Shown here: positions 2,877-5,201 of the stretch, one piece after another
Numbering within the stretch: position 1 is the stretch's first letter
Layout of the letters: the number at the start of each line of letters is the position of its first letter
Assembly: GCF_937128705.1 (NCBI RefSeq)
Contig: NZ_CAKZMP010000099.1
Location: 1 to 44,645, forward strand
From: an uncultured Kiloniella sp.
GTDB lineage: Bacteria; Pseudomonadota; Alphaproteobacteria; Kiloniellales; Kiloniellaceae
Direction: 5' to 3'
Length of the DNA: 44,645 nt
Notes under the pieces: model-generated
The model's input: only the letters and a program-made list of their open reading frames with translations
The model's database searches: none
What the model was told of the DNA's origin: nothing
Position numbers and translations under genes: made by a program

Positions 2877-3660
2877 TTATTTTACGGTTAGACTTTTGTT
2901 GAAGAATTTGATCACTTTTTCATTAAACGCTTCGTGAAATTCTTCTCTGTTTAAGGTGGGGACATCGACACAAACTGTGTTCCAAACTCTTGGGTTATGT
3001 TCTTTCAGTAAAGGATTGCAGGGAGAGAGAAACGCAAAGTGCCCGGCATCTTTAACCAGATGATACTCTGGCGTTTTGGGTAAGAATTTAAAGATTAGAC
3101 CTGCATTGGTCTCTGTTGGAACATTTAAATCTTGTGTCCCCGACCAAAGTTGAAGAGGCAAAGTCACCTTTTCTAATGAAGATTGATCAAAGGCAAAGCC
3201 AAGTCCCGGAGCAATCACGACGGCAGCAGATATTCTTGGGTCGTGGTTCCAGTCACCCGCTGATCGCTGTGCAAGGTCAGTGATTGCGGCGGCGTTGTGA
3301 TCGCCAAGTATACAGGCAACTTCATTTGGACTTTTTTTTGCAATGCGAGAGAAGGTTATGAATATTGGGCACAGCTCCGCTTGAAACCAGGGCTGTGTAT
3401 TCTCCGGCAGAAAAACCGAAAATGCCAATTCTGGCTGGATCAATATTAGTCTTGCCAATCCAGTTGTTGAGCAAGTGGTCAATCGTCAGCTTTATATGGC
3501 GCGGGCGATCCAGCATCCAGCGTTGCGGAGGATAGCTCTCGTTTTCATAGCTATTTCCGGTGTGGGTTGGTGCAGCAGCAATATAGCCTGCTTCAGCAAG
3601 AGCTTTGGCCAAATTCGGGGGTGTGTAAAAACGGCAACAGTATGTGTTGCTATTACGCAA
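2877..3660 (-). pseudogene. Decayed dienelactone-hydrolase-like gene
   Basis: Two overlapping frames together match one predicted dienelactone hydrolase (COG4188-like). The upstream frame (down to 3322) carries LAKALAEAGYIAAAPTHTG, the RPRHI segment and the nucleophile elbow GFSAG. The downstream frame carries the remaining half: DPRISAAVVIAPGLGFAFD, GTQDLNVP and the His motif AGHFAFLSPC. The switch falls at a run of eight T on the plus strand (3332-3339), a 1-nt frameshift. The front is also missing: the frame is closed by a stop at 3664-3666, and the usual signal peptide and first strand with its HG motif are not found. A homopolymer sequencing error could explain the shift but not the lost N-terminus. 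Confidence 0.75.
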
Positions 3661-3767
3661 CTGTCATCTGGTAATTATTTTTGCAAGCTATTTTGAACTT
3701 GGCAAAAAAAGCTCGGACGGGTATTTGTTTTTTGTGAACTACTTTAAGCTTTAACAAGGAACGATTT

Positions 3768-3884
3768 ATGACCCGTATTATCACCTCTGCATATATCCGC
3801 ACGAGCGTGTTCGGGAATCGTTCTCTCCGAGCTTATGTTACTCGTGTTTTTCGATCAGCATTTCGTGGATGCACACAATTATAA
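3768..3884 (+). CDS. Small basic protein, 38 aa, unknown
   Basis: A short frame starting MTRIITSAYIRTSVF and ending FRGCTQL, with seven arginines, no lysine and no acidic residue. A good Shine-Dalgarno AAGGA (3756-3760) lies 7 nt before the ATG, and a possible promoter (TTGGCA at 3699-3704, 17 bp, TATTTG at 3722-3727) lies upstream. The arginine spacing would give an amphipathic cationic helix. I do not recognise it. Its neighbour at 4186 also opens with M-x-R-(I/V)-I and is basic at its N-terminus, so the two may be distant relatives. Being so short it could be chance, but the ribosome site argues for translation. Confidence 0.45.
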   Translation: MTRIITSAYIRTSVFGNRSLRAYVTRVFRSAFRGCTQL

Positions 3885-3934
3885 ATCCACTGAGTGTCAC
3901 ACCTTTTCGGCACTGACTGTCTGAAAAATAGTAT

Positions 3935-3954
3935 TTCACCTATTCACCTATAAT
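3935..3954 (+). promoter_or_regulatory. Tandem TTCACCTA repeat running into a TATAAT box
   Basis: TTCACCTA occurs twice head to tail (3935-3942, 3943-3950) and the second copy overlaps a perfect TATAAT (3949-3954). No good -35 box is seen 17 bp upstream, so the tandem repeat may be an activator site in its place. A transcript from here would carry the hairpins at 3981-4020 and 4045-4073 ahead of the 54-residue protein. Confidence 0.35.
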
Positions 3955-3980
3955 TTGTTTAATTCTTAACGTTTGGCCTT

Positions 3981-4020
3981 CATAGGCATGGGATCTGTGT
4001 TTTTACACCCATGAACTATG
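3981..4020 (+). ncRNA. Multi-segment RNA hairpin in a leader region
   Basis: Nested complementary segments CATAG/CTATG, CATGGG/CCCATG and GTG(T)/ACA(C) close one long imperfect hairpin with a T-rich loop (4000-4004). It lies in the 301-base stretch between the two small proteins, which otherwise holds no gene. It may be part of a structured 5' leader for the 54-residue protein or an end signal for the 38-residue one. Confidence 0.35.
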
Positions 4021-4044
4021 TGCTGTTTGTCTGACTGCTCTGAA

Positions 4045-4073
4045 ATATCTTCTCCAATATTTGGCGAAGATAT
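4045..4073. repeat. 29-bp near-perfect palindrome
   Basis: Arms ATATCTTC (4045-4052) and GAAGATAT (4066-4073) plus an inner CCAA-TAT-TTGG give 12 of 14 possible pairs. It lies 112 bp upstream of the 54-residue protein. No T-run follows, so a protein-binding operator or a leader hairpin is likelier than a terminator. Confidence 0.5.
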
Positions 4074-4185
4074 GTGGGGGCTGGTCTTACAGTGTCTTTT
4101 GCCGACAGAGTCATGTTCAAATTTGGGGTGTTACACGAGTAACTATTAAATACCGACAGTCGTGCTTACAATTATGGAGTAAGTC

Positions 4186-4350
4186 ATGGCTAGAGTTATC
4201 AAGCTATTCAATCGTATTCTTTCTCGCCTTAAGGCAAGAGTTACAGCTGTTGATATTGAGGATCTTCCCGCGTCAATTCGTGAAGACATTGGATTACCTG
4301 CAGACCCCGATCCACCAAAGTGGCCATTTCGGCAAGAGCACTTTTGGTAG
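4186..4350 (+). CDS. Small protein with DUF1127-like DIGL motif, 54 aa
   Basis: The frame opens MARVIKLFNRILSRLKARV, an amphipathic basic helix, followed by an acidic hinge and IREDIGLPADPDPPKWPF, ending in an aromatic EHFW. The (R)-x-DIGL signature after a basic helix resembles DUF1127/YjiS small proteins, which in alphaproteobacteria are often RNA-linked or stress-related; the match is partial and the proline/tryptophan tail is not typical. A Shine-Dalgarno GGAG (4176-4179) lies 6 nt before the ATG. It follows a 300-base stretch rich in hairpins and is followed by an imperfect 14-bp hairpin. Too short for usual gene-length cut-offs, but the codon pattern and ribosome site support it. Confidence 0.6.
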   Translation: MARVIKLFNRILSRLKARVTAVDIEDLPASIREDIGLPADPDPPKWPFRQEHFW

Positions 4351-4387
4351 GAGGCTAGGGGTAACAAACTAAAGTATTGGGCGTTTA

Positions 4388-4437
4388 AAAATGGATAGAA
4401 GGCATATTAAATTTGTAATCTGGCTTCTGTCCATTTT
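4388..4437 (+). terminator. Possible weak terminator hairpin
   Basis: AAAATGGATAGAAG (4388-4401) pairs with CTTCTGTCCATTTT (4424-4437) over 14 bp with one G-T wobble and a 22-nt loop. It begins 37 bp after the 54-residue protein stops. The stem is AT-rich at its base and gives four U at the end, so it could end that transcript. Confidence 0.4.
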
Positions 4438-4571
4438 GCTTGTGGTGCATTTTTGATGAAAATCTTGGGTAATAAAATTACAAATTCAATAAAGTTTGTG
4501 AAGTTGAAAGGGGTAATCTTTGTTGGTTTTAATAGGTTTATACTGAGTTTTTATTCATAAATAAAACTTGT

Positions 4572-4630
4572 ATCTGCTATTTTGCAGATCATGGATGCGA
4601 AATTATTCATTTATCTGCAAATAAGCAGAT
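4572..4630. repeat. Twin dyads ATCTGC-N6-GCAGAT
   Basis: The identical 6-bp arms ATCTGC and GCAGAT occur twice with a 6-bp centre each (4572-4589 and 4613-4630); the centres are 41 bp apart, close to four helical turns. Such duplicated equal-spaced dyads are expected for a dimeric regulator binding one face of DNA. The regulator is unknown; the nearest candidates are the MerR protein just downstream or an unlinked TetR/GntR protein. Confidence 0.55.
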
Positions 4631-4780
4631 GTCATTATCTTGGTATGGTAACGAGATACTGCCGTTGGGATTAGACATTTTTTTGTATTATCAAGTGTTT
4701 ATGTTGATTGCGTCGAAGATGATGACGTAAGGATATCTGTTTCGATCTTTGAAAATGCATTTGATAAATAAAAAAATTAA

Positions 4781-4814: not shown

Positions 4815-5201
4815 ATGAATGAACAGGGCTTGTATAGCATTACGGAACTTACACATGAGTTTGGGATTACAACCCGAACCTTGAGGTTCTACGAAGGCAA
4901 GAATTTACTCAACCCACACCGGGAGGGGCGGAAAAGGTTATACACTTCGCGTGACAGGGCAAGATTAGTACTAATCTTGCGTGGTAAACGCTTAGGGTTT
5001 TCCTTGGCCGAAATTCGCGAAATCATCGAAATGTATGATTTGGAACCCGGTGAAAGTGGTCAAATTCAACGTTTGCTCGAGTGTATTGCTAGACATCGTT
5101 CCAAGCTTGTTGAGAAGAGAGAAGATATCGATGAGATTCTCTCTGAAATGGCAAGAGTAACCGCTGTGGCATCGCAACGCTTGGATGAAATAAAAAAATA
5201 A
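4815..5201 (+). CDS. MerR-family regulator, LiuR-like
   Basis: A 128-residue DNA-binding regulator with an N-terminal MerR winged helix (YSITELTHEFGITTRTLRFY, residues 6-25), the conserved KRLYTSRDRARL stretch, and a C-terminal coiled coil (about 80-128). It is about 60 percent identical by eye to the regulator heading the liu operon at 24772-25155 and has no metal-binding cysteines. LiuR-type proteins control branched-chain amino-acid and fatty-acid catabolism genes; the position directly before the ABC/acyl-CoA synthetase operon suggests control of that operon and of itself through the box at 4781. A conventional Shine-Dalgarno is weak, and the start lies very close to the predicted promoter. 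Confidence 0.85.
   Translation: MNEQGLYSITELTHEFGITTRTLRFYEGKNLLNPHREGRKRLYTSRDRARLVLILRGKRLGFSLAEIREIIEMYDLEPGESGQIQRLLECIARHRSKLVEKREDIDEILSEMARVTAVASQRLDEIKK

Follow-up and report, generated by a model that had tools for sequence, protein, structure and literature searches.

Organization and Distribution of the P1–P2 Locus

The window analyzed here is the whole stretch of 44,645 nucleotides from an uncultured Kiloniella sp., and the locus under study lies near its beginning, between a broken hydrolase gene ending at about 3660 and a MerR gene starting at 4815, a tract in which, as already pointed out in the first-pass annotation, no ordinary gene is present. Two short open reading frames (ORFs), of the sizes given there and each preceded by a good Shine-Dalgarno (SD) site, are found in this tract:

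3768..3884, + strand, P1, putative leader ORF of 38 aa; frame and SD site kept in eight of nine Kiloniella genomes
4186..4350, + strand, P2, DUF1127-like small protein of 54 aa; present in eight of nine Kiloniella genomes

Single-sequence searches (58 genomes for each ORF) retrieved P1 followed by P2, adjacent and in the same order, in eight of the nine genomes of the genus, source genome included, and both frames, whose conservation had been left as a point to verify, are kept in all eight; the genome without the pair (G006) is a 1.5-Mb assembly that is 77% complete. Outside Kiloniella, the matches of the P2 sequence in its 58 genomes were all at E 0.11 or worse, and a P2 profile run against 289 genomes of the class, with at most 23 candidates scored per genome, returned two Kiloniella matches plus weak and short ones in five other genomes, none of them credible. 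The best outside match of the P1 sequence (E 0.007, in G023) was absent from the profile search at E 0.01. The P1 profile recovered, among 61 genomes of the order (52 of them non-Kiloniella), the eight Kiloniella sequences and two weak matches with internal stops, and, among 385 genomes of the class with at most 19 candidates scored in each, two Kiloniella sequences and one 17-residue match within a 339-codon frame. A model of the leader (R1) found the eight Kiloniella loci and no others in the 61 genomes of the order (at most 82 candidates scored per genome). No Rfam family reached its gathering score in the window, the interval 3690–4450 having a single sub-threshold match (E 2.7), and in the open-access literature, searched through the openings of abstracts, no paper on the Kiloniella P1–P2 unit was found. 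Taken from sequence comparison, P1–P2 thus appears to be a leader-ORF unit with long-range RNA structure, restricted to the genus among the genomes sampled.

The genomic setting is partly shared. The MerR-livG-AMP ligase-liv cluster lies about 1 kb downstream of the unit in six of the eight species, and in G002 and G003 two genes are located between the unit and this cluster. On the minus strand at 2877–3660, the alpha/beta-hydrolase-like gene is apparently broken, with two frames overlapping at 3322–3482 and none of full length; a related hydrolase family (F10, 250–338 aa) occurs near the unit in six relatives, and from its position and weak family matches we read the broken gene as a member of F10. 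Another family (F9, about 340–346 aa) is represented by a gene upstream of P1 in G005, G004, G007 and G008; in G002 and G003 its gene lies downstream of P2 instead, and the stretch inspected around P1 contained none in the window and in G001. Upstream of MerR, at about 4572–4631, two mutually complementary dyads, ATCTGCTATTTTGCAGAT and ATCTGCAAATAAGCAGATG, were observed; an 18-bp helix mapped there by hand has, in an eight-species control alignment, a mean of about −22 kcal/mol and 84–86% of cells paired, and the dyads are possibly a regulator site or a leader structure of the MerR gene.

Probable Extent of the Transcription Unit

A promoter is predicted upstream of P1 and a terminator-like hairpin follows P2:

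3699..3727, + strand, predicted weak sigma-70-type promoter, TTGGCA-17 nt-TATTTG, 8 of 12 consensus letters
4388..4437, + strand, terminator-like hairpin after P2, dG −22, z −6.8

The promoter was not listed by the promoter pattern scan because the latter requires 9 of 12 letters and a final T; by eye, TTGGCA and a 17-nt gap leading to a TA-rich hexamer recur upstream of P1 in all eight species, with a variable spacer sequence. A hairpin after P2 with at least four T in the next eight bases was likewise found in every species, weak in G005, by a lax test run without shuffles, and a stricter terminator scan listed none at 4388..4437.

The first-pass annotation had placed the beginning of a leader of about 220 nt near 3960, downstream of a perfect TATAAT (3949–3954) preceded by a tandem octamer, TTCACCTA. 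Both motifs are there, but by eye neither is conserved among relatives, in which the hexamer reads CATAAT, CATAAT, CAAAAT or something unrelated; moreover, TATAAT sits within a predicted helix (H3, below), and for these two reasons it was rejected as the P2 promoter and is unlikely to work as a promoter. By eye, no conserved promoter was seen between P1 and P2. Since the upstream promoter and the hairpin after P2 are conserved and TATAAT is not, P1 and P2 are probably carried by a single transcript, in which the promoter, weak but conserved, would be followed by P1, some 300 nt of structured RNA, P2 and the final hairpin. We infer a transcript start near 3734, hence the leader is probably about 450 nt long and contains P1 as an upstream ORF (uORF). 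The broader idea of a regulatory leader ahead of a small cationic protein finds, on the other hand, good support in the comparison.

The interval 3734–4200 folds better than 100 of 100 shuffles (z −4.2). Between P1 and P2, the following local elements were recognized:

3945..3957, + strand, 5′ arm of helix H3, containing TATAAT (RNAalifold, four closest species; mapped by hand)
3981..4020, + strand, linker hairpin F, nested, dG −14.4, z −3.5
4045..4073, + strand, linker hairpin G, near-palindrome, dG −11.2, z −6.4
4118..4130, + strand, 3′ arm of helix H3, closing the linker domain (RNAalifold, four closest species; mapped by hand)

Hairpins F and G had been described beforehand and hold up as described, one and none of 200 shuffles, respectively, being as good. 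Counterparts with a few compensatory pairs are seen in the four closest species, in an alignment fitted by RNAalifold; the linker fold covers these four species, the linkers of the other four aligning poorly. Neither of two refuting conditions set out in the first-pass annotation, a lack of conservation of the frames and a lack of compensatory changes, came out against the proposed unit.

Constraint on P1 and P2 and the Relation of P2 to DUF1127

The two ORFs evolve in different ways. P1 has a dS of 0.37 and a dN/dS of 0.69 overall, with 0.34 over codons 1–16 and 0.99 over codons 17–36 (27 of 28 species pairs used for these blocks), the latter holding one arm of the long-range helix H1 described below. 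The neighboring MerR gene has a median dS of 1.15 (18 of 28 pairs usable), and P2, in a block of 21 codons that surrounds DIGLP, a dN/dS of 0.08 with a dS of 1.87 (14 of 28 pairs usable); pairs left out of these values were saturated or undefined. Because of this contrast in dS and dN/dS, P1 is, as judged from the substitutions, constrained mainly as RNA and P2 as protein. The P1 frame is nonetheless kept in eight of eight species despite the RNA-type constraint, a pattern expected of a leader ORF.

The similar M-x-R starts of P1 and P2 that had been remarked upon are real, but they do not imply homology, given that a comparison of the P1 and P2 profiles aligned a single column; P1 as a copy of P2 or a relative of DUF1127 was rejected, profile similarity being absent. 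P2 can be called no more than DUF1127-like. The Pfam DUF1127 model (PF06568) did not match P2 up to E 1, nor any of the eight orthologues up to E 10, and genes in the same nine Kiloniella genomes that are DUF1127 score above the Pfam cut-off; aligned to the DUF1127 proteins of the genus (hhalign), P2 gave a weak match of 22 columns around DIGL at 37.8% probability. With the DUF1127 small proteins, P2 shares a DIGL-type motif and a basic N-terminal stretch, and it differs from them in lacking a Pfam match and in the shortness and low probability (38%) of the 22 aligned columns. Its predicted structure is a two-helix model of low confidence (pLDDT 61). The 22 true DUF1127 genes of the nine Kiloniella genomes were also scanned for P1-like uORFs up to 500 nt upstream, and by eye none was present among the candidates displayed, the automatic choice of start having failed for at least two genes (L080 and L090).

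Predicted Long-Range Helices Between P1 and the P2 Leader

Two predicted helices join the P1 region to the leader of P2, and together with a hairpin over the P2 start (E, below) they were found in all eight species; none of the three figured in the first-pass annotation. Their arms, and two further segments in and next to P1, are:

3799..3807, + strand, segment A1, GCACGAGCG, able to pair with 3839–3847 in competition with H1
3837..3847, + strand, 5′ arm of H1, GTTACTCGTGT, inside P1 codons 24–27
3893..3914, + strand, hairpin D, directly after the P1 stop and abutting H2 without a gap, z −2.4
3914..3923, + strand, 5′ arm of H2, TGACTGTCTG, just after the P1 stop
4133..4143, + strand, 3′ arm of H1, ACACGAGTAAC, ending 43–48 nt upstream of P2
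4153..4162, + strand, 3′ arm of H2, CCGACAGTCG, overlapping hairpin E

H1 and H2 cross each other, with 9–13 nt between their 3′ arms. When all ungapped stacks of the P1–P2 region were ranked species by species, H1 was the strongest in seven of the eight and third in the remaining one. In H1, 97.6% of cells are paired and one pair changes from U-A to C-G in G003, G008 and G002; in H2, 93–94% of cells are paired and double changes occur at two neighboring pairs, both in G005. Hairpin D has 89.6% of cells paired and three pairs with double changes, one each in G003, G002 and G008, where the change in G008 is A-U for G-C, and G003 and G002 have mismatches elsewhere in the hairpin. The pairing of A1 with 3839–3847 was discarded as a covarying hairpin, with 94.4% of cells paired in the eight species but no excess of covariation. 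Just after the 5′ arm of H2, the segment AATAGT..TTCACCT (3924–3948) is well conserved in most of the eight species and mostly unpaired in the model.

A scan of the whole alignment ranked H2 first (9.43) and H1 second (8.11), the next candidate having 5.5; with 23 permuted pairing rules, the highest score obtained was 6.93. However, among 30 overlapping control windows taken on both strands from neighboring genes of the same species, six reached the score of H1 and one that of H2, so that this score alone is not decisive. Conserved helices with a mean energy like that of H1 and H2 are also present in the neighboring genes, as a rule with a smaller share of cells paired, and a single control helix (upstream of MerR) is stronger than H1 by this measure. 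Considered together on alignment A3, H1, H2 and D have 94.1% of cells paired vs. 27–41% when slid, six pairs with double changes (equally high in 2 of 500 shuffles) and a covariation of 0.247 vs. 0.189 after shuffling (0 of 500 as high); further pair types showed no excess (243 of 500 shuffles). As for strength, the best two helices linking the P1 region to the P2 leader reached −31.9 vs. a control mean of −15.6 (sd 3.0, minimum −26.3), and the best single helix −17.5, values equaled in neither case by any of 242 controls, which were half-overlapping segments of equal size from neighboring genes of the same species. Under a null that keeps the tree pattern, in which one side of each pair is swapped for real columns of equal variability, the pairing of H1 plus H2 was equaled in 262 of 20000 trials and their double-change cells in 1011 of 20000; taken singly, both helices fail the 5% level under this null (349 and 432 of 5000, 7–9%). 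From the controls combined, the presence and position of H1 and H2 are therefore strongly unusual, and their coordinated change is supported, though modestly, with no more than eight species to draw on.

Predicted Structure at the P2 Start

The initiation regions of the two ORFs differ in their predicted folding. That of P1 is open and folds weakly (0 to −3.6 kcal/mol), for which reason an occlusion of the P1 start was rejected. Over the P2 start, a hairpin is predicted in eight of eight species:

4158..4191, + strand, hairpin E, pairing the P2 start codon, z −4.1; SD sequence GGAG (4176–4179) mostly in the loop

In E, AGUCGUG (4158–4164) pairs with CAUGGCU (4185–4191), which includes the start codon of P2, and five more pairs form in the window. 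Pairing in its lower stem reaches 94.6% of cells in the eight species, with zero double changes and no excess of covariation, the start codon forming one side. Among 59 long ORFs per species, no more than 5.1% equal P2 in the stability of the initiation region. Because the 3′ arm of H2 shares bases with the 5′ arm of E, the full formation of one precludes that of the other.

Hairpin E by itself could be a simple RNA thermometer or a standby element for P2, with P1 as an independent small protein; its prediction together with the structured P2 start in all species and the dN/dS of 0.34 in P1 codons 1–16 would fit this scheme, but the way in which the P1 region pairs with the P2 leader, the low dS of P1 and its near-neutral second half would be left unexplained, and we regard it as very unlikely. 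The leader could also belong to an mRNA akin to those of type I toxin-antitoxin systems, where P2 would be a toxic small cationic peptide silenced by the leader structure and by an antisense RNA. The hok mRNA carries its small protein behind a leader ORF and a long-range structure, which the P1–P2 arrangement resembles, a promoter-like site on the minus strand (4433–4404) would read antisense into P2, and an N-terminal helix is predicted in P2 with low confidence. Promoter-like sites are nevertheless not above chance (two found, 2.7 expected), phages and plasmids gave no match and a DNA search of the source genome returned one copy only; this is the least probable of the explanations considered here.

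A Proposed Translation-Dependent Switch and Its Alternatives

The overlap of H2 with E, and the position of one H1 arm within P1, suggest a mechanism by which translation of P1 may govern that of P2. One transcript would run from near 3734 through P1 and P2 and end at the hairpin 4388–4437. Without ribosomes on P1, codons 24–27 would pair with 4133–4143 to form H1, which would disfavor the crossing helix H2 (3914–3923 with 4153–4162); without H2, hairpin E (4158–4191) would close over the P2 start codon and P2 would not be made. With ribosomes moving or paused over P1 codons 19–32, approximately, H1 would be held open, H2 could then form, taking the 5′ arm of E, and the start codon of P2 would be freed. 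The amount of P2 would in this way reflect the efficiency of P1 translation. Since the H1 arm would be left uncovered by a ribosome at the P1 stop, the signal would have to be ongoing translation, or pausing at about codons 19–32. What the comparison shows is that the unit and its helices are conserved, that H2 and E overlap and that P1 is constrained at the RNA level; the promoter and terminator, the direction of control and the mutual exclusion of H1 and H2, as opposed to a stable pseudoknot, are inferred. Judged from the sequences, we give roughly even chances to P1 being a leader ORF whose ribosomes break H1 and let H2 open E, so that P2 is translated.

Folding calculations (ViennaRNA) are consistent with this switch. 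When the P1 region was masked, which mimics its cover by ribosomes and takes away the greater part of the 5′ arm of hairpin D as well, H2 beat E in eight of eight species by 1.0–8.5 kcal/mol. Unmasked, the best fold with H2 minus the fold with H1 and E ranged from −3.0 to +5.3, and masking shifted the balance toward H2 in every species; because of this shift we propose that translation of P1 opens H1, permits H2 and makes the start of P2 accessible. What argues against a clean switch is that the fold containing H2 was preferred even unmasked in four of the eight species (G007, by only 0.1, G004, G005 and G001). The switch would moreover be weaker if H1 and H2 were present together in a pseudoknot, as they could be.

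The two helices may constitute a stable long-range pseudoknot bound by a regulator, e.g., P2 itself or another RNA-binding protein, the translation of P1 being secondary. H1 and H2 do cross, the 9–13 nt between their 3′ arms were judged long enough to span H1, hairpin D directly adjoins H2, and, with a pseudoknot penalty of 9.6 kcal, the estimated energy differs from that of the best alternative by about 1.5 kcal/mol at most in G000, G007, G004, G005 and G002, but is poor in G003, G008 and G001. A precedent is offered by the E. coli infC-rpmI-rplT mRNA, whose translation is controlled with the help of a long-range pseudoknot to which bL20 binds (PMC10931766); the likeness to P1–P2 lies in a long-range mRNA pseudoknot governing the translation of a downstream gene, and the difference in that the E. 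coli pseudoknot is the binding site of an autorepressor and P1–P2 has no known protein ligand. RNA binding has been ascribed to one of the DUF1127 proteins, from Rhodobacter sphaeroides (PMC12218461), but P2 matches DUF1127 weakly and, as the P2 start is open either way once H2 is formed, H1 would be left without an obvious role. A stable, protein-bound pseudoknot is an explanation that we consider unlikely.

Comparison with Known Leader-ORF Systems

The nearest known systems are the S. meliloti leader discussed below and the toiL-topAI leader of E. coli, in which ribosome stalling is sensed by a uORF together with structure at the start downstream (PMC12121999). In both toiL-topAI and P1–P2, by analogy, ribosomes on a uORF would reshape the RNA near the downstream start, and the occlusion of that start by structure, typical of toiL-topAI, is predicted for P2 as well, by hairpin E in eight of eight species. 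In E. coli, the toiL sequence forms a hairpin directly with the downstream ribosome-binding site (PMC12121999), whereas the arm in P1 pairs 43–48 nt upstream of P2 and not with the P2 ribosome site, and would act, if at all, via a crossing helix.

The distance is also unusual for translational coupling. According to a review (PMC12548453), in most studies little coupling is seen beyond about 30–40 nt, and in one a gradual fall was observed from +50 to +350 nt; coupling by RNA unfolding, in which upstream translation strips structure from the downstream start, resembles what is proposed here, but the gap between P1 and P2 is 301 nt.

In Sinorhizobium meliloti, duf1127_1 is preceded by a leader of 279 nt with a 29-aa uORF located 30 nt after the transcript start, and a transcription attenuation, presumably by Rho, that needs C-rich codons of the uORF has been reported (PMC12218461). 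P1–P2 is similar in having a uORF and a long leader before a DUF1127 gene, or a gene resembling one, in an alphaproteobacterium, and differs in what is conserved, namely helices formed over long distances and a hairpin at the start codon. A Rho-dependent attenuation between P1 and P2, relieved when the translation of P1 is impaired, was weighed for Kiloniella too. The shared layout of uORF, gap and small gene (PMC12218461) argues for it, and in eight of eight species the RNA beyond the P1 stop is richer in C than in G. However, over P1 codons 1–16 the excess of C is slight or absent (C 0.23–0.33, G 0.23–0.27), the largest excess of C over G, 0.11–0.16, lies around the 95th percentile of the background (0.138), and H1, H2 and E would remain without explanation; no credible relative of P1 was found outside Kiloniella in the genomes sampled. 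On balance, attenuation of this kind appears quite improbable in the Kiloniella unit.

Going beyond the switch itself, we tentatively suggest a relay of mutually exclusive helices, in which H1, H2 and E would carry the translation state of P1 over about 300 nt to the start of P2; the unit would be a genus-specific translation sensor in which uORF control was reached independently of S. meliloti and acts on translation rather than on transcription, a possibility to which we assign less than even odds. If this is true, crossing helices that relay a signal across about 300 nt would widen the range of such control, and the unit would suggest that different alphaproteobacteria place DUF1127-like genes under the control of uORFs, a hint that DUF1127-like proteins, which are poorly understood, may have a part in the response to translation stress.
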